Source: a virus
Length of the DNA stretch: 21,743 nucleotides
Direction: 5' to 3' (one strand)
IMG/VR virus record: IMGVR_UViG_3300042691_027643
Span: 1-21,743 of that record
Numbering within the stretch: the first letter of the stretch is position 1; each line of letters begins with the position of its first letter. Positions 1,887-21,187 of this stretch are shown here, piece by piece. The notes under the pieces are model-generated. The model saw only the letters and a list, made by a program, of their open reading frames with translations. It did no database searches and was not told where the DNA came from. A program made the position numbers and the translations under genes.

Positions 1887-1933
1887 TCTTTTGACCCATG
1901 ATCACTGCGAAGGTTTAGTCAAACCAATACCCT
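1887..1933 (+). repeat. Bipartite repeat site 1 (TTTGACCCA ... GGTTTAGTCAAA)
   Basis: The left arm TTTTGACCCA lies at 1889-1898 and the right arm GGTTTAGTCAAA at 1912-1923. The outer six bases are inverted (TTTGAC/GTCAAA). The site fills the gap between the large virion gene and the tailspike gene. Read as a sigma70-type promoter it gives TTGACC (1891-1896), a 17-bp spacer and TTTAGT (1914-1919). The same arms recur elsewhere in the window. Promoter, operator or mobile-element remnant cannot be separated from sequence alone. Confidence 0.7.
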
Positions 1934-4162
1934 ATGGCCGTCCAGTCCGACACATCTCGCATCCAATACGCAGGCAATAACTCGACCACCACGAGCTATG
2001 CCGTGCCGTTTGTTTTTCAAGAGAACAGCCACTTGAAGGCCATCGCCCGCACCTCCGCGGGCGTCGAGAGCGTCGTCACGCTGACCAACCACACCGGAGC
2101 CGGTAACGTCAACGGCGGCACTGTCCGCACCGCGGTGGCCGTTCCGGCGACCAGCACGCTCACGATCTACCGCGAGGTGCCAGCGACCCAGACGACCACC
2201 TACGCCGAAGGCGGCGACTTCCCCGCAGCCAGCCACGAGCGTGCGCTCGACAAGCTCACCCAGATTGCCCAGCAGCTAAAGCGCGGCGTCGAAAACAGCG
2301 TCCGGTTAAGTGAGGCCACCCCACTTAACCCAATCCCCGTGCCCAGCAGTGCCAACCCGCATGTGCTGACGACCGTCAACGGCGGTGCGCCAACGTGGGA
2401 AACGGTGCCGTCCGTTTCTTTTCCTGCGAGCATTGCCGACTTGGGAGACGCCACAACCGTCAACGCCGCCGACGAGCTAATCATCCAGCAGGGCGGGATC
2501 ACCAAACGCGCCACCAGCGCCGAGTTGGCCAAGGGGTTGAATACGATCAACGGCACGATCAACGTCAAAGACTTTGGCGCGGTGGGCGATGGTGCGGCGG
2601 ATGATACGGCGGCAATTCAAGCTGCGCTAAACTCAACGGCCACATCCGTCTATTTCCCTTCTGGTTCGTATCGCGTTGCCAACAATGGAACAACAGGCGA
2701 TCCAGCAATCACCAGCAGCGTGGCCAACCGGCGCATTTTTGGCGAGGGCATCATAACGGCGACCAGCCAAGTTAAGCGGGCGCTTGGAATTACCGGAAAC
2801 AACACGACCGTCACGCTGCACTTCGACGGGAACCTAAACATTGGAACGGCCATCTACGTTGCCGCTGACAACCCTGTTATCACAGGATGTCGCATTTCAA
2901 ATCTTGATGGCAAGACGACATGGCAAGGCGTGGGTGTTCATTTGGCGTTTGATGGTCGTGACACAGCGGCCCTCGTGTCAAACAATGTCATCCGCAACTT
3001 GCAGGGCGCAGGAGACGGCGTTGGAGGTAATGGCGTCGGAATGCAGCGGGCCGTGCTTGTTGAGACGGATCAAAATTGCAACAACGCGGTTTTCATCACT
3101 GGCAACAGCATTGACACTGTTGAAGGAGAAGAGGGAGACGCAATCGTGGTTGCTGGTGGAACCAGCGCCTCGCCGTTGACGCTGCCGTGCGTCATCGCCA
3201 ACAACGTGGTCAAGTCGTGGAATCGAAGAGCGGTAAAGATCGCGGCCAACGGAGTAACGGTCACAAATAACTACTTCACCAACAATTTGCCAGCGTCTTT
3301 GCCGACGCTCCAGCGAGTTATTGACGCAACATCAGGATCAAATCTTTCATTTATCGGAAACACTTTTGATCGTTGCCTCTATCACGCGCAGATTGCTGTA
3401 TTTTTAGACAGCCCTCAAGTTGGCAATAACATCAAGGTGCTTGGAAATACAATATCTGGCGTTGGTTCCACAGTGGCGTCGAGCCTCATGACGGTCAGAA
3501 GCTATGGAACCGGCGTCACGTTTCAAAATAATTGCGTGGTAGCTGAAAGCCACACTGCGGCAAGTATAGACATAAGAAACTCTGCCAATGTGATGGTGTC
3601 TGGAAATACACTTGTTAGCGGAAGCGCGCAGCCGATTAGCATCGACTCATGCACTGATACGAGAATGGTTGGTAACGTAACGAATTCTGATGGGCGATAT
3701 ATTCACTATCACGACTATGAATCTGGAGAGTGGGTGACAAACATCAACAACCAGACAGCCGCAAGGTCGTTTGTGTTTTATAATTCTGACACGACTTTGT
3801 CTGACGGAGAGTTGATCGCTGCGCTTGCATGCCGACAGAACGATTCATCGTTTCCAAACGGTATTCATGGGTCACTAGAATTTAGGGCAGAGGGATCGTC
3901 TGGAAGCACCGGCATAAGAATTTGCGCTGGTAGTGGCGTATCTCCCAACGTCGAAAGGGTGAGGGTTACATCTGGCGGCAACATGGGCATCGGAATCACG
4001 CCAACCAGCAAACTCCACGTTGACGGCGATGTAACCGTCTCCAACGCCACGACTGCGACAACGGCCACGGCGGGAGCGCGAACATTGCCCGCAAATCCCG
4101 AAGATTTTCTTGTCGTTTCAATCAACGGCACCAGCCGCAAAATTCCTTACTACGCAACATGA
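1934..4162 (+). CDS. Tailspike / tail fibre with T7 gp17-like anchor and beta-helix domain
   Basis: This 742-residue receptor-binding protein has three parts. Residues 1-120 resemble the phage T7 gp17 N-terminal anchor that joins fibres to the tail: a beta-rich region, then YREVPATQTTTYAEGGDFPA and a helix (LDKLTQIAQQL). Residues 209-250 carry the entry motif of the pectate-lyase-3 superfamily (VKDFGAVGDGAADDTAAIQAAL, then VYFPSGSYRV). Many short Asn/Gly/Val repeats follow, as expected for a right-handed parallel beta-helix. The C-terminus has a fibre-like signature, GIGITPTSKLHVDGDV, but no obvious peptidase/chaperone domain. Such proteins bind or degrade surface polysaccharide. The beta-helix half is visibly less GC-rich than its neighbours, suggesting exchange of the host-range module. 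The stop overlaps the next start (ATGA). Confidence 0.85.
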   Translation: MAVQSDTSRIQYAGNNSTTTSYAVPFVFQENSHLKAIARTSAGVESVVTLTNHTGAGNVNGGTVRTAVAVPATSTLTIYREVPATQTTTYAEGGDFPAASHERALDKLTQIAQQLKRGVENSVRLSEATPLNPIPVPSSANPHVLTTVNGGAPTWETVPSVSFPASIADLGDATTVNAADELIIQQGGITKRATSAELAKGLNTINGTINVKDFGAVGDGAADDTAAIQAALNSTATSVYFPSGSYRVANNGTTGDPAITSSVANRRIFGEGIITATSQVKRALGITGNNTTVTLHFDGNLNIGTAIYVAADNPVITGCRISNLDGKTTWQGVGVHLAFDGRDTAALVSNNVIRNLQGAGDGVGGNGVGMQRAVLVETDQNCNNAVFITGNSIDTVEGEEGDAIVVAGGTSASPLTLPCVIANNVVKSWNRRAVKIAANGVTVTNNYFTNNLPASLPTLQRVIDATSGSNLSFIGNTFDRCLYHAQIAVFLDSPQVGNNIKVLGNTISGVGSTVASSLMTVRSYGTGVTFQNNCVVAESHTAASIDIRNSANVMVSGNTLVSGSAQPISIDSCTDTRMVGNVTNSDGRYIHYHDYESGEWVTNINNQTAARSFVFYNSDTTLSDGELIAALACRQNDSSFPNGIHGSLEFRAEGSSGSTGIRICAGSGVSPNVERVRVTSGGNMGIGITPTSKLHVDGDVTVSNATTATTATAGARTLPANPEDFLVVSINGTSRKIPYYAT

Positions 4163-4927: not shown

Positions 4928-4928
4928 C

Positions 4929-7765: not shown

Positions 7766-7768
7766 GCC

Positions 7769-8170: not shown

Positions 8171-8209
8171 TCGTTTGACCCACGCTTCTCGTCGCGGTTT
8201 AGTCAAAAC
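8171..8209 (+). repeat. Bipartite repeat site 2 (TTTGACCCA ... GGTTTAGTCAAA)
   Basis: The left arm TAATCGTTTGACCCACG begins inside the stop codon of the upstream gene, with TTTGAC at 8174-8179. The right arm GGTTTAGTCAAA is at 8196-8207 and runs up to the start codon of the lipoprotein gene. As a promoter it reads TTGACC, 17 bp, TTTAGT, the same spacing as site 1. CGC/GCG inside the arms allows extra pairing if transcribed. The site separates the tail genes from the lysis cassette. A promoter whose -10 ends only 6 bases before the start codon would give a nearly leaderless message, which argues for caution. Confidence 0.7.
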
Positions 8210-8505: not shown

Positions 8506-9070
8506 AACGCCCAAGGCTCGACCGCGGATCACCGCGTCACAAGTCGAGGCGATTGTCCGCAAGCATGGCGTCAAGGACGCTGTGGTCATTGTGGGCATCC
8601 GCGGTTACTTCCGGCGCACGCTGGGTGACCCGACGTCGAACGACCGCGGAATCTGGGACGATGCGCTCGTCGTCATTTCCCCGACCGCGTTCGCAGGATT
8701 CAACGGCAACACCGACCCGTCGCTCTGGCGCACCGGCATCGCCTCGCTCGTCGAGGGCGTCCACCGCTACAAGAAGGGCAAGCACGGGATCTCCCGCGGC
8801 AACGGGTATCCGGCGCTGCGTCCTGCTACGCCGAACGAATCCTTGCCGGTGACCCGCGACGGGAAGAAGGGCCGCTCGCTTGGCGTGGCCATAAACATCC
8901 ACCGCGGAGGCAGCGTGAAATCGACCAGCCCGCGGGTGACGTCCTCGCTTGGCTGTCAAACGATCCCCAGCGAGCAGTGGGACAGCTTTATTGGCCTCGT
9001 TTATGGGGAGATGGATCGGTATTCGCAGAAGACCGTCCCGTATATTCTAACGTCGGAACAGCCCGCCTAA
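8495..9070 (+). CDS. Probable endolysin with YkuD-like His...Ser-x-Gly-Cys motif
   Basis: This 191-residue protein follows the lipoprotein and holin genes. Near the C-terminus it carries H136 (VAINIHRGG), then 14 residues, then S151-L-G153-C154 (SSLGCQTI). This matches the spacing of the L,D-transpeptidase/YkuD catalytic signature (His, 14-17 residues, Ser/Thr-x-Gly-Cys). Upstream blocks (GYFRRTLGDPTSNDRGIWDD; NTDPSLWRTGIASL) look like a conserved phage family, but the length is short for a classical L,D-transpeptidase and no signal peptide is seen. Release through the holin would explain that. The likely role is peptidoglycan cleavage at lysis, possibly as a carboxypeptidase or endopeptidase. 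The reaction itself is inferred. The 3' end overlaps the convergent integrase gene by 83 bases. Confidence 0.65.
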   Translation: MPAKTPKARPRITASQVEAIVRKHGVKDAVVIVGIRGYFRRTLGDPTSNDRGIWDDALVVISPTAFAGFNGNTDPSLWRTGIASLVEGVHRYKKGKHGISRGNGYPALRPATPNESLPVTRDGKKGRSLGVAINIHRGGSVKSTSPRVTSSLGCQTIPSEQWDSFIGLVYGEMDRYSQKTVPYILTSEQPA

Positions 9071-10190
9071 TAGCGTCGGCCATCGTTGCTATTGACGCAT
9101 GAGTGTAGCTGTTGCTGATTTTTGTCGAATCGTGGTCGCAGACGAGTTGCCGAACCCGTTGATCAACCCCTGCGTCGAGCATGAGGCCGTTGATCGTATG
9201 TCTCCAGCTATGAAAAGACTTATCCGACATCCCGCGACCCTTGCCTTTCTTTGCGGATACCGACCTTGCGATGCCAGCGTCGTCGAGTAACCGGATGAAA
9301 TGACGCGAGGCCACGCTGGCCGATAGCTTGGAAAGGCGAGGCGTGATGAGGCCGGTGCCGCGGAGGTTGGCCAACTCTCCCAGCAAGGGCACAGACACCG
9401 TCTTCGCCTTGCGGCTTTTTTTTTCCGGCACAAAGTGCAGGACGCCGTCTTGAATCTCATCGTATCGGCGGTGCGTGGCATCGCCAATCCGCATGCCGAA
9501 GTGCAACCCGAACAAGCAGGCGGTGCGCCACTCGTCGTCCGCGGCGGCAAGGATGGCTTCGATCTCCGCGGCGGTGAATGCCTTGCGCTTGGACGCGCCG
9601 TCGGTGCGGTGGAGCGAGACAAGCTCCGCGGGATTGCGGTCGAGGTGCCGCAGCAGGACGGCCCGCTTCAGCACCGACCGGACGGCTTTGATCGTGAAGA
9701 CAACGGTGGATTCGGCCAGACCGGAGTCAGCCAGCGACTGGCGAAACTCAACTATATCCTCCGGCGTTATGCCGCGAAGATCGTGACCGGCGCGGACACC
9801 CATCCAACGGGTGAAGTGAGCGAGGTCTGTGCGATACTTTTCCATCGACCGCGGCTTGGCCACCTTGGCCGCGAGCCAACCGGCGGCGGCGTCGTTCCAT
9901 GACGTCTTCTTCCGCGGGCTGGCGACGTTGGCCAACCGGAGCATGGCCTCAATGCGGCTCTGTGCCCAATGCTCGTCGATTGTTTCCGGCTGACGGGCCT
10001 CTCGCCCAGTGCGCTCCATCTCGTCCGCTACGGCCTTTGCAGCGCGTTTGGGCGTGGTTTTATGTGGCAGGCGGGTGGAGCGCATGGTAGTTCTCCAAAA
10101 GCCTCCGCGGGGGTATTCTGGCGAAGCGACCCATATACGCATGCGGGCCAGCCAGAACGGTGATTTAGGGACAGTGATGACGGATGCCAT
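8988..10190 (-). CDS. int: Tyrosine recombinase / phage integrase
   Basis: This 400-residue protein is encoded against all other genes. Residues 1-60 are basic with strands typical of an arm-binding domain, residues 98-190 form a SAM-like core-binding domain (WLAAKVAKPRSMEKYRTDLA), and residues 200-365 are the catalytic domain. The full active-site set is visible: R234 (GMRIGDATHRR), a Lys near 257-263, H327-x-x-R330 (FHSWRHT), H353 (VCDHDS) and the nucleophile Y362 (SNSYTH). It should integrate and excise the phage by recombination between attP and attB. Its 3' end overlaps the endolysin gene. Phage genes lie on both sides, so the sequence appears to be in non-integrated order. Confidence 0.93.
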   Translation of the reverse strand: MASVITVPKSPFWLARMRIWVASPEYPRGGFWRTTMRSTRLPHKTTPKRAAKAVADEMERTGREARQPETIDEHWAQSRIEAMLRLANVASPRKKTSWNDAAAGWLAAKVAKPRSMEKYRTDLAHFTRWMGVRAGHDLRGITPEDIVEFRQSLADSGLAESTVVFTIKAVRSVLKRAVLLRHLDRNPAELVSLHRTDGASKRKAFTAAEIEAILAAADDEWRTACLFGLHFGMRIGDATHRRYDEIQDGVLHFVPEKKSRKAKTVSVPLLGELANLRGTGLITPRLSKLSASVASRHFIRLLDDAGIARSVSAKKGKGRGMSDKSFHSWRHTINGLMLDAGVDQRVRQLVCDHDSTKISNSYTHASIATMADAIRRAVPTLEYTGRSSANTDPSPHKRGQ

Positions 10191-10415
10191 AGGGAGCCAA
10201 TTTACCCCAGCCAGTTATACAATCAAATACGAAAAATGCGTAAAATAAATGAGCGTTTTACTCTGTTACAGAAGCACTTACACAAAACGAGGGTTCGATA
10301 CATAAAAGCCCATTTTACTCTGTAGAACGCCACCGAAAGGCCAGAGTTAACACACCCAGTTACCACACCTTTTCCCCATTTGCATTTTTTTCCGCGCTGG
10401 GTTTGACTGGTACCC
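10191..10415. promoter_or_regulatory. AT-rich int/early intergenic region with short repeats; candidate attP or switch region
   Basis: This divergent 225-bp gap separates the leftward integrase from the rightward early genes. It contains two direct copies of TTTTACTCTGT (10256-10266 and 10313-10323), an inverted pair GTAAAA (10240-10245) and TTTTAC (10256-10261), and on the - strand a TATAAC sequence (10213-10218 on +) about 23 bases before the integrase start. GGTACC at 10409-10414 lies directly before the next gene. Such iterated motifs beside an integrase can be integrase arm sites or lysogeny operators. No attP core can be fixed without the host att site. Confidence 0.5.
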
Positions 10416-10601
10416 ATGCCGTATGCAGATCCGAAGGAGCAGAAGGAGGCTATGCGCCGTCGCTATCGGGAGCGGTATGAGAGCGAGCGCGGGTTCCGGC
10501 AGAAGGAAAGCCGCCGGAAGGCCAAGTATTACGCGACCAATTCCAAATACCGGAAGCGCGTCATCGCCAAAGCCAAGGCTCGCAAGAAGGCTACCGCGTG
10601 A
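10416..10601 (+). CDS. Small basic hypothetical protein (61 aa)
   Basis: The product is very rich in Arg and Lys and starts MPYADPKEQKEAMRRRYRER, ending in a strongly basic tail (VIAKAKARKKATA). This MPY-x-D-P-opening basic family is frequent in phages, but I know no established function; nucleic-acid binding is plausible from charge alone. It is the first rightward gene after the integrase region. No clear ribosome-binding site precedes it, so it may be translated from a short or leaderless message. The stop shares a base with the next ATG. Confidence 0.6.
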   Translation: MPYADPKEQKEAMRRRYRERYESERGFRQKESRRKAKYYATNSKYRKRVIAKAKARKKATA

Positions 10602-10953: not shown

Positions 10954-10974
10954 TTCTATCGAACCCACAAGGAA

Positions 10975-12271: not shown

Positions 12272-12432
12272 TGGACTACCTCATCGTCGCTCTGATCGTG
12301 GCCATGTGGCTGATCAGCATCGTTGGCGCATTTAGCGCCGGTTGGATCACTGGCTGGGACAAGTCCGAAGCCAGTCACAAGTGGAGCCGGTGGATTCTCC
12401 GGCAATACGAAAACCGTTCCGTCCGATTTTAG
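12271..12432 (+). CDS. Small single-pass membrane protein (53 aa)
   Basis: The N-terminal half is a transmembrane helix (YLIVALIVAMWLISIVGAFS) followed by a charged, aromatic tail (WSRWILRQYENRSVRF). The start overlaps the upstream stop as TAATG. Short early membrane proteins are common in phages and often untested. No family is recognised. Confidence 0.55.
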   Translation: MDYLIVALIVAMWLISIVGAFSAGWITGWDKSEASHKWSRWILRQYENRSVRF

Positions 12433-12434
12433 GC

Positions 12435-13178
12435 ATGCAACCCACCAAAGAAAAACCCGCCGACGCAGCATGCCGCGCCGACGGGCCAATGAACACAGTG
12501 AATACAAATACAATGAACACCGAAAGTGGTCAACTGACGTTGGCCGAACCCAAGCACAAACCCGTCGAGATCAACCTCGACGCCCACGGGGTGCAACTGC
12601 GCTCCTTCGACGAACTGGGCCGCTTTTGCAAAGCGGTCGTTAACTCCACACTCGCTCCCAAGAGTTTCGACAAACCGGAGAAGGTGATGGTCGCAATCCA
12701 AGCGGGTTTGGAAGTTGGCCTCGCGCCCATGCAGGCTTTGCAGTCAATCGGCGTGGTCAACGGCAAGCCCGTCATTTTTGGTGACGCCGCGCTGGCCTTG
12801 GCCATGCGTCATCCCGACTTTGAGGACATCGAAGAGGTGGCAAGTGGCGACAAGGCAACTTGCACGATCAAGCGCCGTGGCCGCACGCCGTGCGTTCGCA
12901 CGTTTACGATGGAGGATGCTAAGCGTGCCAAGCTGGCGGGCAAGGACGGCCCTTGGCAAATGTATCCGCAGCGCATGCTGCAAATGCGTGCCCGCTCGTG
13001 GGCACTGCGCGATTCGTTTCCCGACGCGCTCAAGGGTCTGGGCATCCGCGAGGAGGTGCAGGACTACGTTCCGCGCAACGTGACCACCCGCAAGGTGGCC
13101 GACAGCGTGGTGCTACCGGAACCCGCAAACGCCGCCGACTTCTTTGACTCCGCGGTCAAGCAGGAGGAGTTGCTATGA
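12435..13178 (+). CDS. recT: RecT-family single-strand annealing protein
   Basis: The core is typical of phage RecT: FDELGRFCKAVVNSTLAPKS, EKVMVAIQAGLEVGLAPMQA, LQSIGVVNGKPVIFGDAALAL, then GPWQMYPQRMLQMRARSWAL and a final acidic block. RecT anneals complementary single strands at recombining ends and usually works with an exonuclease, here the RecE-like gene one step downstream. I chose ATG 12435 (247 aa), two bases after the upstream stop; ATG 12489 is an alternative. An upstream GTG at 12342 would overlap the membrane-protein gene and was rejected. The first 30 residues are low-complexity Asn/Thr-rich. Confidence 0.88.
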   Translation: MQPTKEKPADAACRADGPMNTVNTNTMNTESGQLTLAEPKHKPVEINLDAHGVQLRSFDELGRFCKAVVNSTLAPKSFDKPEKVMVAIQAGLEVGLAPMQALQSIGVVNGKPVIFGDAALALAMRHPDFEDIEEVASGDKATCTIKRRGRTPCVRTFTMEDAKRAKLAGKDGPWQMYPQRMLQMRARSWALRDSFPDALKGLGIREEVQDYVPRNVTTRKVADSVVLPEPANAADFFDSAVKQEELL

Positions 13179-13312
13179 GAGACGACATCTGCTGCGACGA
13201 GGAGGCGGACGCCGGTATGTGGCGTCGCGCCGAGGATCGTGCGCGTCTTTACGGCGTGCCGTTCGATCCGGTCTTGGAAGGCGTAGCCAAAGCGGAGGAC
13301 GACGATGAATAG
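13175..13312 (+). CDS. Small acidic hypothetical protein (45 aa)
   Basis: Wedged between recT and the recE-like gene, this reading frame overlaps both (ATGA at the start, 8 bases at the end). The product is acidic at both ends (MRDDICCDEEADAG and AKAEDDDE) with a short helix between. There is no known motif. Its retention inside the recombination pair suggests an accessory or regulatory partner, which is inference. Confidence 0.55.
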   Translation: MRDDICCDEEADAGMWRRAEDRARLYGVPFDPVLEGVAKAEDDDE

Positions 13313-14111
13313 CGGCATCCTCTCGTTACCGGACGCGCAGTATCGTGCCGCCGAAGGCATATCGAAGTCCGCGCTGGACTACATCGCGCCACCGCGGACT
13401 CCCGCGCACTACAAGGCATACATCGATGGGCTGCTCAAAACCGAGACGACGCCCGCCATGCGTCTTGGTTCCATGATCCACCGAGCGATTTTGGAACCGG
13501 ACGGCGTGGACTGGGTCGTCAAGCCGGAGGGCATGATGTTCACCACGAAAGAAGGCAAGGCGTGGCGCGAGGCACAGACCGCGACGATCATCACCGCCGA
13601 GGAGGAGGCAACCATCACCGGAATGCGTGATTCGGTTCACGCGCACCCCGCGGTCAAACGACTGTTGGCCAAGGCGAAGACAGAAGTTTCGCTGTTTGCG
13701 AATGGCGAAGACGGCGTGTTGAGGAAGGCCCGCATCGATGCGCTGCCCGAAAGCGGCAACTGCATCGTGGACATCAAGTCATGCGCGTCGGCATCGCCGG
13801 ATGCGATGTCAAAGAGCATGGCGGCATATCGCTACGATGTGCAGGCGGCATACTATCTCGACTTGGCCAAGCTGCTCTCGCTCGACAAGAGCGAGTTCCT
13901 GCTGGTGTGCGTCGAGAAGACAGCGCCGTTTGCCGTCGCAGTCTACGCCATCGATCACGATGCCGTCGAGTGGGGCCGGAAGCAGTATCAGTCCGACCTC
14001 GCTTTGCTCCGGCATTGCGAGGCCGAGAACCACTGGCCTGCCTTCACGCAGGAGATCACCACGCTCGCGCTACCGGCGTGGGCACAAAAACAAGCGGAGG
14101 CTGTGCTGTGA
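13305..14111 (+). CDS. RecE-like exonuclease (PD-(D/E)XK, exonuclease VIII type)
   Basis: The 268-residue protein carries the RecE/exonuclease VIII pattern: MRLGSMIHRAILEP (H59), TEVSLF (E127), RKARIDALPES (D145), CIVDIKS (D156-x-K158) and AYRYDVQAAYYLD (Q180-xxx-Y184). This order of acidic and Lys residues is the PD-(D/E)XK nuclease core, with the QxxxY helix of RecB-type exonucleases. It should degrade one strand of double-stranded DNA so that RecT can anneal the exposed strand. Early-operon placement next to recT supports a Red-like recombination pair. It is much shorter than E. coli RecE but typical for phage versions. Confidence 0.85.
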   Translation: MNSGILSLPDAQYRAAEGISKSALDYIAPPRTPAHYKAYIDGLLKTETTPAMRLGSMIHRAILEPDGVDWVVKPEGMMFTTKEGKAWREAQTATIITAEEEATITGMRDSVHAHPAVKRLLAKAKTEVSLFANGEDGVLRKARIDALPESGNCIVDIKSCASASPDAMSKSMAAYRYDVQAAYYLDLAKLLSLDKSEFLLVCVEKTAPFAVAVYAIDHDAVEWGRKQYQSDLALLRHCEAENHWPAFTQEITTLALPAWAQKQAEAVL

Positions 14112-14350
14112 AGAAGTTCCTTGTTGTTTATACGGATGGAGGCTCCCGCCACGAGGGTGAAATCGATGGCCGGTTTCGCACGCGGGCTGAAGCGGAAAAG
14201 TTCATTAAGGAACAAAACGCGAAAGAAGATTGGTCTGACTACGACAGCGCGTTCGATTGGACATACGAAATCTGCGAGGTCGTCACTTCGTTTGTTACCA
14301 CGGTGACGATCAAGCGCAATCTGGCCATTAAGGAGGTCAAGCCGCAATGA
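14108..14350 (+). CDS. Hypothetical protein (80 aa)
   Basis: This gene starts at GTG overlapping the recE-like stop (GTGA) and ends in ATGA overlap with the next gene. It opens with a beta-strand (KKFLVVYTDGG), then a helix (RTRAEAEKFIKEQNAKED), then a strand-rich C-terminus. The fold could be a small alpha/beta domain, but I do not recognise it. The gene is AT-richer than its neighbours. Confidence 0.6.
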   Translation: MKKFLVVYTDGGSRHEGEIDGRFRTRAEAEKFIKEQNAKEDWSDYDSAFDWTYEICEVVTSFVTTVTIKRNLAIKEVKPQ

Positions 14351-14676
14351 AGCAGTGGACACGCCAACTCGTGCCCACAAGCAAAGGACGGTGGGGGGCC
14401 AAGGTGCCCCCCGCCGAATGGCGGGCGCGTCTGATGACCGTCGAGGCACCGGCCCGCTATGCCTGTGCGCGGATTGTTTGGTGGGAGTTTTTCTCCATGC
14501 GACTCGTGCCGGAGCGTTGGGGCCATATCGACATGCTGCTCAAACGCCGCGACGAGGTGCCCGACGATGTTCTCGTCGAGGCGCTCGTGCAAGTAGGCGC
14601 ACCGCGGGCATGGGCCGAGAAGCGCGTCATCGTTAAACCGCGGGCACGCCGGAAGGTTGGGGGGAAATGGACATGA
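14347..14676 (+). CDS. Hypothetical basic protein (109 aa)
   Basis: The product is rich in Arg, Trp and Pro, with a helical centre (WGHIDMLLKRRDEVPDDVLVEAL) and a basic C-terminus (RVIVKPRARRKVGGKWT). It lies between the recombination pair and the RusA-like gene and overlaps the latter by 10 bases. The charge suggests nucleic-acid binding. No specific motif is visible. Confidence 0.6.
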   Translation: MKQWTRQLVPTSKGRWGAKVPPAEWRARLMTVEAPARYACARIVWWEFFSMRLVPERWGHIDMLLKRRDEVPDDVLVEALVQVGAPRAWAEKRVIVKPRARRKVGGKWT

Positions 14677-15068
14677 TCACCGCGCTAATTCTTGGCGAGC
14701 CGAACATCGTCACATGCCAACAAAAGGGCGTGATGGTGAGGAACGGCAAGCCCATGTTTTTCACAAAGAAGCGGGTGCAGGATTCGCGTGACGCGCTGAT
14801 CTTGCAGCTACGCAAATTCGCACCGCGCAAGCCAATCGACTATCCGGTGCTGATCCGCGTCAAGCTGGCCTACAAGCAGACCAAGGCGCGGCCAAACGAG
14901 CGACGGCATGGCAAAAGGCCGGATCTCTCAAATAGTTTTAAGTCGCTGGAAGATTGTTTGGTCAAAGCCGGTTGGCTGACTGACGACGCGCTGGTCGATC
15001 AAATTGTCGCGGAGAAGTTCCGCGTATCGGAGCCATACATTGAAATCACCATGAAGGAGGCGCTGTGA
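14667..15068 (+). CDS. rusA: RusA-like Holliday junction resolvase
   Basis: The 133-residue size and layout fit RusA: an N-terminal strand, a basic central part (KKRVQDSRDALILQLRKF), the signature KRPDLSNSFKSLEDCLVKAG (residues 83-102), the acidic pair WLTDDALVDQI (D106, D107) and the closing strand PYIEITM. RusA dimers cut Holliday junctions symmetrically and need a cluster of Asp residues. Here D86 and D106/D107 are kept, but the second Asp of the usual PD-x-DN motif is Ser88. The acidic pair E95-D96 lies nearby and may compensate. It closes the recombination operon and is followed by bipartite repeat site 3. Confidence 0.8.
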   Translation: MDMITALILGEPNIVTCQQKGVMVRNGKPMFFTKKRVQDSRDALILQLRKFAPRKPIDYPVLIRVKLAYKQTKARPNERRHGKRPDLSNSFKSLEDCLVKAGWLTDDALVDQIVAEKFRVSEPYIEITMKEAL

Positions 15069-15106
15069 GTCATTTGACCCACGCCTCCGGTTTAGTCAAA
15101 ATTTAC
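15069..15106 (+). repeat. Bipartite repeat site 3 (TTTGACCCA ... GGTTTAGTCAAA)
   Basis: The left arm TTTGACCCACGCC is at 15073-15085 and the right arm GGTTTAGTCAAA at 15089-15100. The arms are six bases closer than at sites 1 and 2: 11 bp between TTGACC and TTTAGT instead of 17. That is too short for a normal sigma70 promoter. It lies between the recombination operon and the HNH/replication operon. Confidence 0.7.
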
Positions 15107-15209
15107 GAACCGTCTGAAAGCGGTAAGCACAGCATGAAAAAACAAAACAACCAACCTTCTGATCCGTCGCCGTGGGCCGCTGTGTGCCTTCTTTCAGCGG
15201 CGGCGGTTC
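15107..15209 (+). repeat. Long-range inverted repeat around a mini-gene
   Basis: GAACCG-t-CTGAAAG (15107-15120) is complementary to CTTTCAG (15191-15197) and CGGTTC (15204-15209). Transcribed, it could form a 13-pair interrupted stem with a loop of about 70 bases that holds most of a 33-codon reading frame. A T-rich run (15215-15225) follows the second arm, but the long loop makes a classical terminator unlikely. A leader or attenuator structure is possible. Confidence 0.4.
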
Positions 15210-15235
15210 AGAGGGTTTTTGTTTTACGCCCATGA
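15134..15235 (+). CDS. Possible leader peptide / mini-gene (33 aa)
   Basis: ATG 15134 opens a 33-codon frame (MKKQNNQPSDPSPWAAV..., ending FVLRP) whose TGA overlaps the ATG of the HNH gene at 15232 as ATGA. The coupling, and its location inside an inverted repeat, suggest a translated leader. The product has no recognisable motif and the frame could be chance. Confidence 0.4.
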   Translation: MKKQNNQPSDPSPWAAVCLLSAAAVQRVFVLRP

Positions 15236-15765
15236 CATACGCAGAAAAATTGAAAGACCCACGCTGGCAGAAACGTCGGCTGGAAGTATTGGAAGCAGCG
15301 GGATGGAAGTGTTCCGAGTGCCAATCCGCCGACCAAACCCTGCACGTTCATCACAACTTTTATCGCTCGCGCACCGAGCCTTGGAACTATCCAGACCACG
15401 CGCTCCGAGTGGTGTGCGAGGAGTGCCATGAATTCGTTGATGAGCAGCGCAAAGAGTTTAAGGAATTAAGCGAGTCGCTGTTTGAAGATCCAGAAGGTGC
15501 TGGGTTCGCTGTTGAATCCGTCATTGGTTTTATGAAGGCACTTCGCATGTTCTACGCGCTTGGCACAAAGCCCGAACACACCGAGTCTTTGGCTGGTTAT
15601 GGTCAAGAATACGGCTTCGCAAGGTTCTTTGAGGGCGACCAGAAGCTCTTGGAGCCGCAGCTAAAGCGCAGCTTTGTCACGGGCGAGGTGGCTGATGGTC
15701 TTTGGAAGTTGCAGGCGAAAAACCTTGCGGAGCGGCTAAAGCGATATGAGGAGGCGGGATTGTGA
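15232..15765 (+). CDS. HNH-type zinc-finger nuclease-like protein (177 aa)
   Basis: The protein begins TYAEKLKDPRWQKRRLEVLE, then has a zinc-binding HNH-type array: C27-x-x-C30 (WKCSEC), L-H-V-H40-H41 and C62-x-x-C65-H66 (VVCEECHEF). This opening and finger are common in a phage and bacterial HNH family whose role is mostly unknown. The C-terminal 100 residues are helical and not recognised. I chose ATG 15232, which overlaps the mini-gene stop, over a GTG at 15172 that would add Gly/Ser-rich residues with no match to the family start. It is coupled by GTGA to the replication-like gene. Confidence 0.7.
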   Translation: MTYAEKLKDPRWQKRRLEVLEAAGWKCSECQSADQTLHVHHNFYRSRTEPWNYPDHALRVVCEECHEFVDEQRKEFKELSESLFEDPEGAGFAVESVIGFMKALRMFYALGTKPEHTESLAGYGQEYGFARFFEGDQKLLEPQLKRSFVTGEVADGLWKLQAKNLAERLKRYEEAGL

Positions 15766-16631
15766 AGCGGCCATCGTTTCAATTTTATCCCGCCGACTGG
15801 CGCAAGGATTCTGGGTTGCGACTATGCTCGCTGGCCGCTCGCGGCCTGTGGGTGGAGATGATGTGCATCGCCCACGAGTCCGAGGAATACGGCAAACTCA
15901 AACAAAACGGCAGGGGTTTTTGCCACAAAACCCTCGCAAAACTCGTGGGTTTGTCGCCGCAAACATGCCTCAAATTATTGAAAGAACTTGAGGAGAACAA
16001 AGTGTTTTCCCGCGACGAAGATGGCGCGATTTATTCGCGGCGAATGGTTAAGGATGAAGCACTTCGGAAGATTCGGGCGGAAGCCGGAAGCAAGGGCGGT
16101 AACCCTCTTTTGCTTGGACATTTGGTTAAGCAAAACGAGGAGCAAAATCCAACCCCTTCTTCTTCATCTTCATCTTCAGTAACTCCTCTCTCCCCGCCGA
16201 CACCGACGCTGGAAGAGTTTTTGGCATGGGCCAATCGGTGCAGCCTTCCCGCGGACATTGCCGAGGCGTGGTTTGACCGAGCCAACAGCAGGAAGTTCGC
16301 ATTTGAGGGCTACTGGACGGATCGTGACGGCAGGGCAATTACCGATTGGCGACGGGAGATTGCGTCCTACGCGAAGTATCGTGCCGCTAAACAGGCCGAG
16401 ATTGCTCACAGAAGCTCGTCCAAGGCTTTGACTAAACCAAAAGGGGTCTGGGAGGCCAAACAGGGTCTGGAAGCCTTAAAATCGAAATTAGAGCGAATGA
16501 AGTCCGACCCGCGGAACCGTCGGCATAAAACCGAGACGCCTTGGGAAACCGAGTGGACGGAAGAAGCGCGAGCCGAAGTCGCACGCATCCGCGCCAAGAT
16601 CAGCGAATTGGAAGGGGTGGTGGCGGCGTGA
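15762..16631 (+). CDS. Replication-initiator-like protein with winged-helix N-terminus
   Basis: Residues 1-100 (FQFYPADWRKDSGLRLCSL; ARGLWVEMMCIAHESEEYG; LAKLVGLSPQTCLKLLKELE) resemble the N-terminal winged-helix domain of phage replication organisers. A low-complexity linker follows (seven Ser at 133-139, then Pro-rich to about 149). The C-terminal half has WANRCSLP...AEAWFDRANSRKF...YWTDRDGRAITDWRREIASYAKY, a helical unit similar to DnaT/primosome-type domains that follow such linkers. It probably recruits helicase to the phage origin. The GTG start overlaps the HNH stop. The Ser tract is encoded by TCT/TCA-type repeats. One exact reverse-strand copy of the right-arm motif lies at 16427-16438. 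Confidence 0.65.
   Translation: MKRPSFQFYPADWRKDSGLRLCSLAARGLWVEMMCIAHESEEYGKLKQNGRGFCHKTLAKLVGLSPQTCLKLLKELEENKVFSRDEDGAIYSRRMVKDEALRKIRAEAGSKGGNPLLLGHLVKQNEEQNPTPSSSSSSSVTPLSPPTPTLEEFLAWANRCSLPADIAEAWFDRANSRKFAFEGYWTDRDGRAITDWRREIASYAKYRAAKQAEIAHRSSSKALTKPKGVWEAKQGLEALKSKLERMKSDPRNRRHKTETPWETEWTEEARAEVARIRAKISELEGVVAA
16427..16438 (-). repeat. Exact right-arm motif GGTTTAGTCAAA on the - strand, inside a gene
   Basis: The + strand reads TTTGACTAAACC, the exact reverse complement of the 12-base right arm. It encodes part of ALTKPKG in the replication-like protein. No left arm is adjacent. This may be chance, but with five + strand copies of the same 12-mer it belongs in the inventory. Confidence 0.5.
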
Positions 16632-16924
16632 GCGAAACACCGGAAACAGACGCGCAGCTAACGACGTTCACTTCGATCAGCAAGCTGAAGAAGCATTTCA
16701 CCAATCGGACTGGGACTGTCAGCGCGGAATTTGCCCGCAAGCTGGAACGTCAGCGCGACCGATATGCCCGTGCGCTGGAATTTATTGCAGAAGACAGCGA
16801 AGCGTGGCTGGCCAACCAGTGCGACGAGACATGCTGCGAAATGATCAAGTTGATCGAGAAATACGCCCGCGAGCATTTGAGCGATAAGTTTGCCCACGAG
16901 GATTTGACCACACCCGCACAATGA
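16628..16924 (+). CDS. Hypothetical helical protein (98 aa)
   Basis: The GTG start overlaps the upstream stop (GTGA). The product is helical and charged, with a basic middle (EFARKLERQRDRYARALEFI) and a Cys-containing segment (ANQCDETCCEMIKLIEKYA). The Cys trio could bind metal, but no standard finger spacing is present. Its last codons contain TTTGACCACA (16903-16912), similar to the left arm of the bipartite repeat. Confidence 0.55.
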   Translation: MSETPETDAQLTTFTSISKLKKHFTNRTGTVSAEFARKLERQRDRYARALEFIAEDSEAWLANQCDETCCEMIKLIEKYAREHLSDKFAHEDLTTPAQ

Positions 16925-16927
16925 GTC

Positions 16928-17143
16928 ATGCCCACAAACAGTCTGGAGGACTTTATTGCTTTCAGCATGCAGGACGACGAGGTCGCAGTGATGAACATCT
17001 TGGCCGAACACTGCCCGCTGGTCAGCGACAACGCCGTTTGGGCTGCGGACGTCCACAACACCGGAGAGGTGATCTCGTGGATCAATCGCAACCCGCAGCA
17101 CTTTCGTCGGATTGGTTTAGTCAAAACAAAGTCACGACGATGA
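16928..17143 (+). CDS. Hypothetical protein (71 aa)
   Basis: This small acidic protein has a helical core (LEDFIAFSMQDDEVAVMNILAEH) and the segment EVISWINRNPQHFRRIG. I do not recognise it. Its last codons (GLVKTKSRR) are encoded by the right-arm repeat GGTTTAGTCAAA at 17114-17125, suggesting that the repeat supplied a new C-terminus or lies at a module edge. The stop overlaps the next mini-gene as ATGA. Confidence 0.55.
   Translation: MPTNSLEDFIAFSMQDDEVAVMNILAEHCPLVSDNAVWAADVHNTGEVISWINRNPQHFRRIGLVKTKSRR
17114..17125 (+). repeat. Right-arm motif GGTTTAGTCAAA at a gene 3' end (site 4)
   Basis: This exact 12-base copy of the right arm is 15 bases before the stop of the 71-aa gene. No left arm is adjacent; the nearest similar sequence, TTTGACCACA, is about 200 bases upstream at 16903. 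If those two form a pair, they bracket a single small gene. Confidence 0.6.
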
Positions 17144-17256
17144 AACTTTCCGGCGGCACAGGCTGCGCCAACGTCAATGTGGTCATCGCCACCCAAAGAT
17201 GTGGGGGCCGTCGCGGTATCGCGCTATCCGCGGCCCGCCGGAACTTTTTCCCATGA
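17140..17256 (+). CDS. Possible mini-gene (38 aa)
   Basis: ATG 17140 overlaps the upstream stop, and the TGA overlaps the next start (ATGATG at 17253). The product is Gly/Ala/Arg-rich with two Cys (GTGCANVN; QRCGGRRG). The double coupling suggests it is translated. Composition and length leave open that it is chance. Confidence 0.4.
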   Translation: MKLSGGTGCANVNVVIATQRCGGRRGIALSAARRNFFP

Positions 17257-17615
17257 TGCTGGAACTCAACAAGCCGTTCCCCGTTGACACGCCGCTTGGC
17301 TATGGCTGGGCGATCATCGTGTCCCGCGAGAGCAATCTGGCCAACGACATCTGGACGGTCGTCATGGAGCGCGACGGCGCGTTTGTGCATTTCCGAAGCG
17401 AACAAATCTGGGCGCTGCCAAACGGCACGCTCGACATCAACACACAACCAAAACCATGCAATACAACGACGACAACCGAGGTGCCGCTTTTCCGCGGCAA
17501 TCAGACAACCCCAAAGCGCCCAAGTGGTCTGGCCCCGTCAAAATCGAAGGCAAAGACTACGAGATCAGCATCTGGGAGCAAACGAGCAAAAGCGGGAAAG
17601 ATTTCCTCTCGCTGA
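17253..17615 (+). CDS. Hypothetical protein whose 3' third overlaps the SSB-like gene
   Basis: From ATG 17253, residues 1-68 look like a real protein (FPVDTPLGYGWAIIVSRESN; DIWTVVMERDGAFVHFRSEQ; IWALPNGTLDI). From about residue 69 the frame runs 160 bases into the SSB-like gene and becomes Thr/Ser/Lys/Arg-rich (TTTTTEVPLF ... SKSKAKTTRS), as expected for an out-of-frame reading of that gene. The ancestral stop was probably lost near 17456. The N-terminal domain is not recognised. Confidence 0.55.
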   Translation: MMLELNKPFPVDTPLGYGWAIIVSRESNLANDIWTVVMERDGAFVHFRSEQIWALPNGTLDINTQPKPCNTTTTTEVPLFRGNQTTPKRPSGLAPSKSKAKTTRSASGSKRAKAGKISSR

Positions 17616-17722
17616 AATTCGGCCCGCCGTGGGTTCCGAAGGAGCAAGGCAACTACAACGCGCCGAAGCCCGCAGCGCCGCGGACGACTGACGAGCCGGT
17701 AGACGACGACATTCCGTTTTGA
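17456..17722 (+). CDS. Small SSB-like protein with acidic DDDIPF tail
   Basis: The 88-residue product opens MQYNDDNRGAAFPRQSDN, has a strand-rich centre (GKDYEISIWEQTSKSGKDFL, then SLKFGP), and ends TTDEPVDDDIPF. The last residues match the acidic, aromatic C-terminal tip by which bacterial and phage SSBs recruit partner proteins. The centre fits a small OB-type or related fold found in a common phage family. It likely binds single-stranded DNA or docks replication and recombination proteins, consistent with the RecT/RecE/RusA set upstream. The 5' part overlaps the preceding frame, and TTGA joins it to the next gene. Confidence 0.65.
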   Translation: MQYNDDNRGAAFPRQSDNPKAPKWSGPVKIEGKDYEISIWEQTSKSGKDFLSLKFGPPWVPKEQGNYNAPKPAAPRTTDEPVDDDIPF

Positions 17723-18153
17723 TCCTGCACGAGACAACGCAAGACCGGAACACCGAACGCCGGATCATCGAAGCCGTGGCACAAAAACACGGTTTCGATA
17801 CCGCGTTCTGTTCCAAAGCCTACCCCGTGGACTCCATGTTTGTCCGCGGGCGTAGGCCGGTCTGCTTTGTCGAGGCCAGACACCGCAACAACTCCAAGGA
17901 CAAGTATCCGACCTTCATCTGGTCACTGCAAAAATTCATCCATGCCCGCCAGTTTGCCGACGTCTTGCCCACCGTTCTGCTTGTCGAGTGGGAGGAGGGC
18001 ATCTACAGCGTCAAAATCTTCGACCAGAAGTATCCGGTGACCTACGTCAACCGCACCGGCACCACCGGACGCACCAGCGCGGACAACGAACCTTGCGTGG
18101 AAATCCCGACCAGCGATTTCCGCGAAGTCATCCCCAAAGAATACACATGGTAA
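17719..18153 (+). CDS. PD-(D/E)XK-like nuclease-fold phage protein
   Basis: The start is TTG at 17719, overlapping the SSB stop as TTGA; no ATG lies near enough to keep the N-terminal helix. The pattern is that of a small restriction-like fold: E14 in helix 1 (NTERRIIEAVAQKHG), D38 (YPVDSMF), E52-A-R54 (VCFVEARHRN), then a helix (YPTFIWSLQKFIHARQFA) and a strand (TVLLVEWEEGIYSVKIFD). Relatives normally have E-x-K; here the Lys is Arg, so catalytic activity is uncertain. It may process replication or recombination intermediates. The closest alternative is an inactive structural relative. Confidence 0.5.
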   Translation: MILHETTQDRNTERRIIEAVAQKHGFDTAFCSKAYPVDSMFVRGRRPVCFVEARHRNNSKDKYPTFIWSLQKFIHARQFADVLPTVLLVEWEEGIYSVKIFDQKYPVTYVNRTGTTGRTSADNEPCVEIPTSDFREVIPKEYTW

Positions 18154-18818
18154 AAATCGACTACGTCATCCAAACCAGCGCACGCACCGCCAACCGCCTG
18201 CCGGTGACCAAAAACTGGACACGCCACGTTGCCGCGCCTTCGACGGTGCGCTACGCGGGCGACGAACAAGTGGGCCGCGGCGATTACCTTTCCGCGACCG
18301 AGAAGACGCTCTACGCCATCGATACCTTCAAGCCGCACTACGATTGGCTGTATGTGATCGACGACGACGGCTACGTCAACGTGCGACGACTGGAACTGCG
18401 ACTGATCGATCTCGATCCCGACGAGCATCACGCCATTGGCCTTGTGCATGGCAAGCTGACGCACGAGGACGCCAAGCTACCGGCATTGCATGGAGGGTGC
18501 GGGTTTGCCCTGTCTCGCGCCACCGCATGTCAACTCCAGCAGATGCACTGGCATGGCGAAATGGTCACGCATCCGCGGAGCAGTGACGCCACCGTGTCGA
18601 TCAACTTGCACCGGATGCGCGTGGTGCCGACGCATGATGCCCATTTTACAAGCGAACTACCAACCGACGACAAGTTCATCGCGTGCCACCGCGTGTTGCC
18701 GACGACACCGGAGGCGATCATTCAACGAATCAATGGCGAACAACGTATGGTAGTTGAGGCGAGCGAAGCGAAGCCGAATAATGTTCTGGGGTGTAGTCAA
18801 ACTCTGGGTCAAGGCTAA
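18147..18818 (+). CDS. Fringe-like (GT31-type) glycosyltransferase
   Basis: From ATG 18147 (overlapping the upstream stop) the product is 223 residues. It shows the landmarks of Fringe/beta-1,3-glycosyltransferases in order: YDWLYVIDDDGYVNVRRLEL, with the metal/nucleotide-sugar DDD at 72-74; an IGLVHGKL strand; HGGCGFALSRATACQL (116-131), matching the GGAG(Y/F)-x-LSR acceptor-side motif; and SDATVSINL (146-154), matching the DDxT-type catalytic segment. The C-terminal HFTSE...ACHRV resembles the late Fringe motif. No membrane anchor or signal is present, so it should act in the cytoplasm, perhaps on DNA, a virion protein or a host glycan. Donor and acceptor are unknown. The last codons (CSQTLGQG) run into bipartite repeat site 5. 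Confidence 0.65.
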   Translation: MVKIDYVIQTSARTANRLPVTKNWTRHVAAPSTVRYAGDEQVGRGDYLSATEKTLYAIDTFKPHYDWLYVIDDDGYVNVRRLELRLIDLDPDEHHAIGLVHGKLTHEDAKLPALHGGCGFALSRATACQLQQMHWHGEMVTHPRSSDATVSINLHRMRVVPTHDAHFTSELPTDDKFIACHRVLPTTPEAIIQRINGEQRMVVEASEAKPNNVLGCSQTLGQG

Positions 18819-18828
18819 TCGTTTGACC
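18792..18828 (+). repeat. Bipartite repeat site 5, arms in reversed order
   Basis: A partial right arm (TAGTCAAA, 18794-18801) comes first, followed by GGGTCAA (18807-18813) and the left arm TAATCGTTTGACC (18816-18828). The latter is identical over 13 bases to site 2. GGTCAA (18808-18813) and TTGACC (18823-18828) can pair as a hairpin. The site covers the 3' end of the glycosyltransferase gene and the gap before the small terminase gene. Confidence 0.6.
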
Positions 18829-18853
18829 AAAGGAGTAGAAGAGACGCAGCGAC

Positions 18854-19261
18854 ATGACCTCACAAACCGAGAAAGACAAGCGGATCGATGCCATTGCCGA
18901 CTGGATCATCGGCGGCATGCGTTACTCTGATGCGCTTGCCAAAACTTGCACCGAGTTCAAGGTGTGCGACCGCACGGCCCGAAGCTACATCGGGCAGGCC
19001 AACGCGCTTGTCCGCGAGGCCCGCATGACCATGAAGGAGTCCGAGATATGCGAGGCGGTCGATTGCCTCAAGGACACCTACGGAAGCGCACGGCGCAACA
19101 ACGACCACTCCGCGGCGACCGGCGCAATGCGCGAACTGATCAAGCTGCTGGGGCTGGCCGAACCCGACAAGCAGGAGGTCAAGCATGACGTCACTGATCC
19201 GGTCAAAGCCTTGCTCAACAACGTGGTCAACAGTCCCGACCAACCCAAACCGCGTGGATGA
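18854..19261 (+). CDS. terS: Terminase small subunit
   Basis: The 135-residue protein sits directly before, and overlaps, the large terminase gene. Residues 10-50 form a helix-turn-helix-type unit (DAIADWIIGGMRYSDALAKT; FKVCDRTARSYIGQANALVR), followed by a long helical part suited to ring assembly (MKESEICEAVDCLKDTYGSA; AATGAMRELIKLLGL) and a polar tail. Small terminases recognise the phage pac or cos site and load the large subunit. GAAGAG(ACG) lies upstream of ATG 18854. Assignment rests on the fold and context. Confidence 0.75.
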   Translation: MTSQTEKDKRIDAIADWIIGGMRYSDALAKTCTEFKVCDRTARSYIGQANALVREARMTMKESEICEAVDCLKDTYGSARRNNDHSAATGAMRELIKLLGLAEPDKQEVKHDVTDPVKALLNNVVNSPDQPKPRG

Positions 19262-20801
19262 CAACGCCGATCTGACCGACCCGCTCTGGCGTCTGTCTCA
19301 TCTTTACCACATCAAACGGGCCGACGATGGCCGCGTGGTGCCCTTTGTCCCGCGACCGGAGCAGCAGCGCGTCTACGACATGCTGTTTCTGGAAGGCTGC
19401 AAGCGACTAATCATCTTGAAAGCCCGCCGGTTGGGCATGTCCACCGCGCTCGACGTTTTGCTGACCGACCAGATGCTTTGGAACGCGGGCACGCAGTGTT
19501 CGCTGGTTGATCAGACCGCCGCGGATGCGGAGCGCAAGCTGGCCACCATTGCCAAGGTCGCTCTCGACAATCTCCCCGCGGGCACGCTGCAACACATTGA
19601 GAAGGTGCGCGACTCCGGTTCGATCTTGGAGGTGAGCGTCAATGGCAATGCCGCGTCGTCCTTCTTTGCCGGATTGCGAGCGCGTGGCGGCACTAACAAC
19701 TGGCTGCACTTGAGCGAATGGGGAGTCATCCAAGCCGACGACCCGCGACGCTCCGAGGAGATTCTCACGGGCGCAATCCCGTCCGCGGAGCATGGCCGCG
19801 TCATTGTCGAAACAACGTGGAAGGGCGGGCGAGGGGGTCATTTGTGGGACATCGTCAAGCAGGCGATGGAAACACCGGACAGCGCGAAGACGGACAAAGA
19901 CTGGCGCGTCGTCTTCTTCCCTTGGTGGAAAGATCCGACTTACATATTAAAGGGAGACGTCCAAACCGTTAATAAGGCGACCAGCGAGTATCTCGACGAC
20001 ATGCAGGCCCAGACAGGCCACGCCTTCACGCCGGAGCAAAGGCTGTGGTATGACCGCCAAGCGAAGCAACTTGGTATGTTTATCTTCCGCGAGTTCCCCA
20101 CTACGGTGGAGGAATGCTTTAAGTCGCCGGTCGAGGGCGCGATCTACGCGGGAGAACTGGACAAGCTGCGTGCCGCCGGAGCCATCGGGCCGATCAAGGT
20201 GGACAACTCGTATCCGGTGCATACCTCGTGGGACATCGGGTCGCCGGTCAACACGGTCACTTGGTATTGGCAACTGGTCGCAGGCAACGAAGTCCGTGTC
20301 ATCGATGTGGACATCGATCTCGACCTCACTCCGGTGCAGCGCGTGGCCCACATGATGGCCAAGGGATACAACTACGGGAACCACTACTTGCCGCACGATG
20401 CCAGTGCCCAGAAGAACACGAGCGGGCGCAGCGACGAGGCCGAGTTGCGGGCCGCGGGACTCAACAACACGCGCATCGTGCCGCGGACGCATGACGTCTG
20501 GATCGGGATTAATAGACTCCAGCAAATGCTGCCACGCTTCAGCTTCCGCTTGCCACACTGCGAGGCAGGGGTCACCGCGCTCTCCAACTACGCCTACAAG
20601 CGGGCCAGCGCCACCGGCATCGTGGTGCATGAGCCAGTGCATAACTGGGCAAGCCACGCCGCGGACGCATTGCGAATGCTGGCCGAGGCCGAGGCCGCAT
20701 CGATGCTCAAGACCGGCACCGCACCGCGGGAACCCGCTGTGGTTGTCACTGGCATCCGCGACCTTGGTTGGAGCGACCGGAGGGCGGTGGTCAGACGATG
20801 A
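19254..20801 (+). CDS. terL: Terminase large subunit
   Basis: The 515-residue packaging motor has both expected domains. In the ATPase, RLIILKARRLGMSTALDV (51-68) is a divergent Walker A of the type seen in P22-like terminases, NWLHLSEWG (149-157) carries the Walker B/catalytic Glu155, and VIVETTWKGG is the coupling motif. In the RNase H-like nuclease, D327 (TSWDIGSP), D382 (YLPHDAS) and D471 (SHAADALRM) form the metal-binding triad. I chose GTG 19254, which overlaps the small-subunit stop by 8 bases; an upstream ATG at 19185 would add 23 residues read out of frame from terS. It translocates DNA into the prohead and cuts concatemers. Confidence 0.92.
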   Translation: MDDNADLTDPLWRLSHLYHIKRADDGRVVPFVPRPEQQRVYDMLFLEGCKRLIILKARRLGMSTALDVLLTDQMLWNAGTQCSLVDQTAADAERKLATIAKVALDNLPAGTLQHIEKVRDSGSILEVSVNGNAASSFFAGLRARGGTNNWLHLSEWGVIQADDPRRSEEILTGAIPSAEHGRVIVETTWKGGRGGHLWDIVKQAMETPDSAKTDKDWRVVFFPWWKDPTYILKGDVQTVNKATSEYLDDMQAQTGHAFTPEQRLWYDRQAKQLGMFIFREFPTTVEECFKSPVEGAIYAGELDKLRAAGAIGPIKVDNSYPVHTSWDIGSPVNTVTWYWQLVAGNEVRVIDVDIDLDLTPVQRVAHMMAKGYNYGNHYLPHDASAQKNTSGRSDEAELRAAGLNNTRIVPRTHDVWIGINRLQQMLPRFSFRLPHCEAGVTALSNYAYKRASATGIVVHEPVHNWASHAADALRMLAEAEAASMLKTGTAPREPAVVVTGIRDLGWSDRRAVVRR

Positions 20802-21187
20802 CGCCGCTCGACAAAGTCCGCGCCTTGTATACGGACAATTCTCCGCGCACCTTTGCCGAGGATCTGACCGCACACATGCAATGCGGCTACGTTTTCTCGA
20901 CGCCGGATTATTTGCTCATGGTGCGTCCGGTCTGGAGCAAGGCACCGCAAGAACACATCAACGACGTCTGGATGGCGTTCCCGCCGCAGCTTTGGGACGC
21001 TTGGTATGTCTACGCTTTCGCCCTGCGCGACGACGGAGGCTTGCAGGGTTTAGTCAAAAATCTTTTGACCCACATGCCCTTTTACCTTCCTCTCGTCGCA
21101 TGGGAGCGATCCGGCGACACCTTGTCGTTTTTCTCCACCGACAAACTTTTCCACAAATATGCGAAACTACACACGTTCACCCATTGA
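20798..21187 (+). CDS. Hypothetical protein containing repeat site 6 (129 aa)
   Basis: ATGA overlap joins it to the large terminase gene. The protein is aromatic-rich (DYLLMVRPVWSKAP; VWMAFPPQLWDAWYVYAFAL) with no membrane segment or signal peptide. Small proteins of this kind are common between terminase and portal genes; a possible role is host-range or acetyltransferase-like, but I see no motif that proves it. The stretch GLQGLVKNLLTHMPF is encoded by a full two-arm repeat, an in-frame insertion or a conserved regulatory site inside a gene. Confidence 0.6.
   Translation: MTPLDKVRALYTDNSPRTFAEDLTAHMQCGYVFSTPDYLLMVRPVWSKAPQEHINDVWMAFPPQLWDAWYVYAFALRDDGGLQGLVKNLLTHMPFYLPLVAWERSGDTLSFFSTDKLFHKYAKLHTFTH
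21047..21072 (+). repeat. Bipartite repeat site 6, reversed arms forming a perfect hairpin
   Basis: The right arm GGTTTAGTCAAA (21047-21058) is followed, after a few bases, by the left arm TTTTGACCCA (21063-21072). GTCAAAA-ATC-TTTTGAC (21053-21069) is a perfect 7-bp stem with a three-base loop, and GGG/CCC outside it could pair across a TTTA bulge. It lies within a coding frame, unlike sites 1-3. Confidence 0.7.

Follow-up and report, generated by a model that had tools for sequence, protein, structure and literature searches.

A dispersed 12-bp word at gene junctions in a family of uncultured phages is a candidate operator set

The closest described counterparts of the element reported here are sets of dispersed, asymmetric sites in other phages. 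The stoperator of L5 and cluster A mycobacteriophages, GGTGGMTGTCAAG, is bound by a monomeric repressor (PMC6550527, PMC9283540), and L5-type sites lose function when reversed (PMC9283540). It is an asymmetric word of 12 to 13 bp with a GGT...GTCAA(A/G) layout, its many copies are spread genome-wide over narrow intergenic spaces as well as some genes, with one in the early regulatory region, and the motif drifts between related phages (PMC6550527, PMC9283540). The element described below resembles it in these respects, the early-region copy being present in nearly all relatives. Phage P1 has 22 dispersed asymmetric 17-bp operators for a single repressor, C1 (PMC8546580), and a temperate phage with a single asymmetric word scattered in many copies is also what is seen here. 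Two further cases are similar. The 22-bp repeats of the T1-like phages T1, Stevie and TLS are asymmetric and predominantly intergenic, and their authors compare them with stoperators (PMC4319613, PMC11447400). In the Nostoc phages A-1 and N-1, a dispersed motif is described as asymmetric, located between ORFs and not consistently in gene direction, and its authors suggested stoperators (PMC4916379). A preliminary description of the present DNA stated that no described element has this form, which is too strong given the L5 stoperators and P1 C1 operators; the best reading of our analysis is that the system may work like one or the other.

The DNA analysed here, the window, is the virus record IMGVR_UViG_3300042691_027643 at its full length of 21,743 nt (21.7 kb). 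Its gene content is that of a temperate tailed phage. A predicted tyrosine-type integrase (8988–10190, − strand; phrog_1) is evidence for a temperate life style, and the replication and recombination complement comprises RecT-like annealing, exonuclease VIII-like, RusA-like resolvase, replisome-organizer-like and SSB-like proteins. The large terminase (19185–20801) has weak named homologues, and a relative of it is encoded by 61 loci; the relatives are uncultured contigs, many of them partial. No relative of the terminase or the integrase, and no prophage, was found in the GTDB species genomes. The nearest named integrase belongs to an Akkermansia phage, and this match is too weak for a host to be named.

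Six exact copies of a 12-mer, GGTTTAGTCAAA (B), and five of a partner element, TTTGACC(C/A)A (A, for example TTTGACCCA), had been reported in the window, and all were confirmed at their positions, given below site by site. The accompanying statement that B is far above chance also held. B is the commonest 12-mer of the window, with six copies against three for the next unrelated 12-mer, and it is both the most frequent and the most over-represented 12-mer in approximately 690 kb of relatives, where 230 copies were counted and 0.04 expected under a third-order Markov model; chance repeats are thereby excluded. The word recurs beyond the window, with 7 to 12 exact copies in each of eleven relatives with records of 37 to 42 kb and eight copies in one further 32-kb record, and its reversed (not complemented) control word gave no match in 16 records. 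As a positive control, the same k-mer count was applied to mycobacteriophage D29, and the known stoperator ranked first among 12-mers: it has 14 copies in the 49-kb genome, a large number of them 2 to 21 nt from gene ends, distances similar to those of B. Scanning IMG/VR for GGTTTAGTCAAAAC gave at least 75 new loci. Among the matches listed, 42 loci unrelated to the family contained a single B, as chance predicts, and no unrelated locus contained two or more, which makes multiple B sites a property of this phage family.

The sites had been proposed to mark module borders. This is broadly right, although what they mark is gene junctions and not module borders specifically: in 15 records, 70 of 111 sites (63%) have a start or stop codon no more than 40 nt away, compared with 18% of bases, where the sites are not phylogenetically independent and the homology-based gene models are approximate. 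The typical junction consists of a stop codon, 2 to 26 nt, B, another 2 to 26 nt and an ATG. In the window, the copy at 1912–1923 (+ strand) begins 26 nt past the stop of the ORF at 135–1886 and ends 10 nt before a tailspike-like ATG (1934); B is also present at this junction in G001, G004, G007, G008 and G010, and in reversed orientation in G011. In the lysis region, the copy at 8196–8207 (+) follows the stop at 8170 by 26 nt, and an ATG comes 2 nt after it, at 8210. The small ORF beginning at this ATG starts with MKPLVLLALALTGC and is lipobox/lipoprotein-like and spanin-like. A third copy (15089–15100, +) is located 21 nt past the stop of the RusA-like gene. The copy at 21047–21058 (+) had been placed before terminase, but it lies inside the ORF at 20768–21187, which follows the large terminase gene, where it forms the codons GGT TTA GTC AAA; the site that does precede the small-terminase-like ORF (18854) is a one-mismatch version, GGTGTAGTCAAA (18790–18801, +), which is exact in L010 and L012. 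Two more copies fall inside ORFs, one reversed within the replisome-organizer-like gene at 15762–16631 (16427–16438, −) and one in the last codons (GLVK) of the ORF at 16928–17143, within 20 nt of its stop (17114–17125, +). A near-match, GCTTTAGTCAAA, at 11782 within an HNH ORF was treated as probable chance. After the 17114 copy, a stretch beginning ATGAAACTTTCCGGCGG (17138–17256) is conserved at the DNA level among relatives and opens only a short frame; it may represent a leader or non-coding element.

B is held by selection on DNA. Junction clusters were first gathered by exact B, and conservation was then re-tested in orthologues without requiring an exact site. In these unconditional scans, the 12-mer in the post-terminase ORF was exact in 52 of 52 orthologues; it keeps TTA, a rare codon that accounts for 2.7% of Leu codons, and many codons near it differ synonymously in 30 to 60% of comparisons. 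The copy in the ORF at 16928–17143 was exact in 34 of 35 orthologues. The antisense copy in the replication gene was exact in 22 of 27, with the other five losing only the first T of TTTGACTAAACC. Several conserved copies are well inside genes. Some copies have been gained or lost; one in a giant gene is exact in three of seven orthologues and absent from the rest. The word has also drifted. No B was found in the 8.7 kb of sister lineage L060, whose terminase is 58% identical, and this stretch has three copies of GGWTCTAGTCAAAACA, the variant word of the sister lineage being GGWTCTAGTCAAA. One GGWTCTAGTCAAAACA copy immediately precedes the capsid gene, at the position of the reversed pre-capsid site of the family. 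Such a change of word at an unchanged location would be expected if an operator drifts together with its protein.

A protein site of another kind, serving replication, packaging, segregation or recombination at borders, would also be family-specific, dispersed, present in both orientations and conserved inside genes, and the phage encodes RecT and an exonuclease. We consider this improbable, since such a site would have no obvious reason to be so strongly concentrated at start and stop codons. As for recombination at borders, B falls well below the length that homologous recombination would need, and no exchanged modules are marked by the exact copies within the post-terminase ORF.

The orientation and anatomy of the sites bear on whether B is an operator or a promoter, both of which had been offered as a single possibility, a phage-specific operator or promoter set. 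Relative to transcription, 76 of the 111 sites (15 records, not independent) point along the gene and 35 against it. The orientation flips at two orthologous junctions: most relatives have a forward site at the tailspike and a reversed one before the capsid gene, but G011 has the former reversed and L011 has the latter forward. A sequence logo from 55 non-redundant sites contained exactly 12 informative positions in an asymmetric arrangement, with an abrupt left edge and a weaker A/C-rich stretch following, and no further strong positional information from −40 to +60. If promoters specific to the phage were built around B, for example with TTTAGT as a −10-type element recognised by a polymerase or sigma factor that the phage has modified, leaderless or short-leader transcripts would be made from each gene block. 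Such a role would fit the majority of sites, which run along transcription just upstream of start codons, as well as several sites at which TTTAGT-N6 ends exactly at the ATG and two junctions at which a partner TTGACC/TTGCGC lies 17 bp upstream of TTTAGT. However, the 35 opposing sites include some 1 to 2 nt before start codons and one conserved inside the replication gene; the logo has no −35/−10 information at fixed spacing; the next ATG is anywhere from 2 to about 40 nt away; and at other junctions A and B have a spacing of 11 or stand in the opposite order. The proteins scanned included no sigma factor and no RNA polymerase, and a consensus promoter scan gave no excess over shuffles. The antisense copies, the variable distance to the start codon and the missing second hexamer make the promoter version unlikely, and the operator version fits best.

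The internal structure of the word points to two recognition elements. In a search for GGT-N(n)-AGTCAAA, 268 matches had n = 2, 15 had n = 1 and 10 had n = 3, with close to none at any other n. All 15 of the n = 1 matches fell at one junction, and eight of the ten n = 3 matches, their spacer bases varying, shared one place in the integrase/early region, where they directly precede the start codon of the first rightward gene. A gap of 2 or 3 bp (1 bp at one junction) and an early 3-bp spacer of no fixed sequence suggest two half-elements, so GGT and AGTCAAA are probably recognised as separate halves. In the window, this early site is GGTACCAGTCAAA (10402–10414, −), a 13-bp variant of B with a spacer one base longer, which lies in the integrase/early divergent region and adjoins the ATG (10416) that opens the first rightward gene. 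It was absent from the initial list of sites and corresponds to exact B copies in relatives; nearly all relatives have either the 12-mer or the 13-mer GGTNNNAGTCAAA at this position. An early-site B was not recognisable in G011, and no promoter was found at the early site by consensus scan. The same intergenic region (10191–10415 in the window, with counterparts in L017, L020, L046, L077, L080 and L081) contains, in relatives, a sequence resembling a tRNA 3′ end, such as GGTTCGATTCCGACCCTCGCCTCT or GGGTTCGATTCCCTTCACCCGC, flanked by repeated TTTTACTCTGT words. From their sequence and arrangement, these are probably attP with its arm sites. The tRNA-like sequence differs between phages, and members of the family may therefore target different tRNA genes.

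The partner element was examined in the same relatives. The 8-mer most enriched near B is GGGTCAAA/TTTGACCC, and A, as TTTGACCCA, is a genuine companion in the lineage of the window, where it occurs at 1890–1898, 8174–8182, 15073–15081 and 21064–21072, with an A-like TTTGACCAA at 18822–18830 (all + strand). At the tailspike junction, TTGCGCCA stands in its place in G001, G004, G007, G008, G010 and L007, and at the 8174 junction CTTGACC(C/A)C is found in G004, G007, G008 and G010. After the terminase, where A is downstream of B, about 45 relatives have (A/C)TTGCGCCA. Most relatives have TTGCGCCA for TTTGACCCA at three sites (tailspike, post-terminase and pre-capsid), and some of them have it before the small terminase as well. 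A coordinated lineage swap from TTTGACCCA to TTGCGCCA was considered and is clean at several junctions, but some of these TTGCGCCA-bearing relatives retain TTTGACC ahead of the small terminase and behind RusA, so the swap is only partial. A is thus a genuine but variable second element, with two alleles or more.

The variability of A matters because A and B had been described as an inverted repeat. This holds in the close lineage of the window, where TTTGAC and GTCAAA are complementary and can pair, and fails beyond it, where TTGCGCCA replaces TTTGACCCA. Because complementarity of A to B is not general, neither the hairpin nor the inverted-repeat reading can stand. A role of B, or of A plus B, in RNA, as a hairpin or in processing, antitermination or translational control, would be in keeping with this pairing and with most sites being in intergenic mRNA in the sense orientation. 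We regard it as very improbable: folding is weak (z −0.5 to −2.5), TTGCGCCA cannot pair with B and no compensating change in B accompanies it, A is missing from many B sites, conservation extends to antisense copies, and no Rfam match was obtained. The suggestion that the repeats are the ends of a very small mobile element drew on their dispersed copies. It can be given virtually no weight, nor can chance repetition, because B stands alone at most sites, its order and orientation relative to A vary along with the A–B spacing, no unit with two constant ends exists, and the sequence of the site is under selection inside genes. The lack of −10/−35 information, the use of both orientations and the two orthologous flips argue together against promoters, RNA elements and mobile-element ends alike.

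We therefore favor, with a probability of roughly 55%, the reading that B serves as operator for a protein that the phage itself encodes, that binds DNA sequence-specifically and that silences gene blocks; this protein is most likely its lysogeny repressor. In the proposed mechanism, this protein would bind the dispersed B copies genome-wide, contacting the half-elements GGT and AGTCAAA across the variable gap. From the copy in the integrase/early intergenic region it would repress initiation or early elongation of the lytic program, and the dispersed copies, mostly between a stop and the next start, would act as roadblocks that silence each gene block in the prophage. Counted against the operator reading are the mixed orientation (76/35), with flips at two orthologous junctions, the missing early-site B in G011 and repressor candidates without a database match.

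Differences from the known systems were also evident. With the motif in its written orientation, all 15 exact 13-mers in D29 run counter to the gene closest to them, whereas about two thirds of B sites run along genes and some flip. The B spacer is one base shorter than that of L5 at most sites, and a homologue of the two-domain repressor (HTH plus stoperator domain) was not recognised among the conserved small proteins. Since uniform polarity was looked for and not found, and no cognate repressor was recognised, B was not filed as L5-type. Compared with the P1 C1 operators, B is unrelated in sequence and length and lies mainly between stop and start codons. The T1-like repeats differ in sequence and length, are reported to be oriented with transcription and occur in phages described as virulent (PMC4319613, PMC11447400), and A-1/N-1 have a different motif (PMC4916379). 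A tentative extension, which we consider doubtful, is that B represents stoperator-type silencing outside the established phage groups, distinguished by both orientations, two half-elements across a variable gap and a companion TTTGACC/TTGCGCC of lineage-varying allele beside an unvarying main site, with two proteins, one conserved and one changing in specificity.

Two small proteins are candidates for the repressor. One is a 72-aa HTH-like protein (11874–12092, +) that is kept in every relative covering the region, G011 included; its AlphaFold2 model (pLDDT 81) has four helices and gave no PDB match. The second candidate, a very basic 61-aa protein (10416–10601, +), is the product of the first rightward gene, whose ATG adjoins the early B-type site, and it too is kept wherever the region is covered, including in the most divergent member, G011. 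The conserved small proteins had no convincing Pfam, PHROGs or PDB match. Many relatives encode a fast-evolving winged-helix protein before the capsid gene (AlphaFold2 pLDDT 87). It is not a likely binder of B because searches failed to find it in L060 or in G011, a phage that nevertheless has seven exact B copies. Its gene adjoins one for a 96-aa putative metallopeptidase of the HExxH type (in L079, the region is 599–2008); the pair resembles a regulator plus peptidase and matched no curated family.

If B is a repressor operator set, sequence alone would have defined the system of immunity used throughout this family of uncultured temperate phages, and genome-wide operator silencing would extend beyond mycobacteriophage-like groups. 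The varying orientation of B would provide a test of whether RNA polymerase is stopped only by sites of one polarity, a mechanistic question that is open for L5, and the invariant 12-mer could be used as bait to fish out the repressor.

Other features of these genomes were noted. The HNH endonuclease ORF in the window (11332–11877) is directly upstream of the conserved gene for the 72-aa HTH-like protein and has no counterpart in the diverged relatives compared; it is a possible homing insertion. In L079, a giant protein of 2724 aa (10994–19165) has a below-threshold match to ART-PolyVal (ADP-ribosyltransferase) and is possibly an ejected virion protein. In the interval between replication and terminase genes, L080 contains a gene (11899–13035) with a match to Fringe-like glycosyltransferases.
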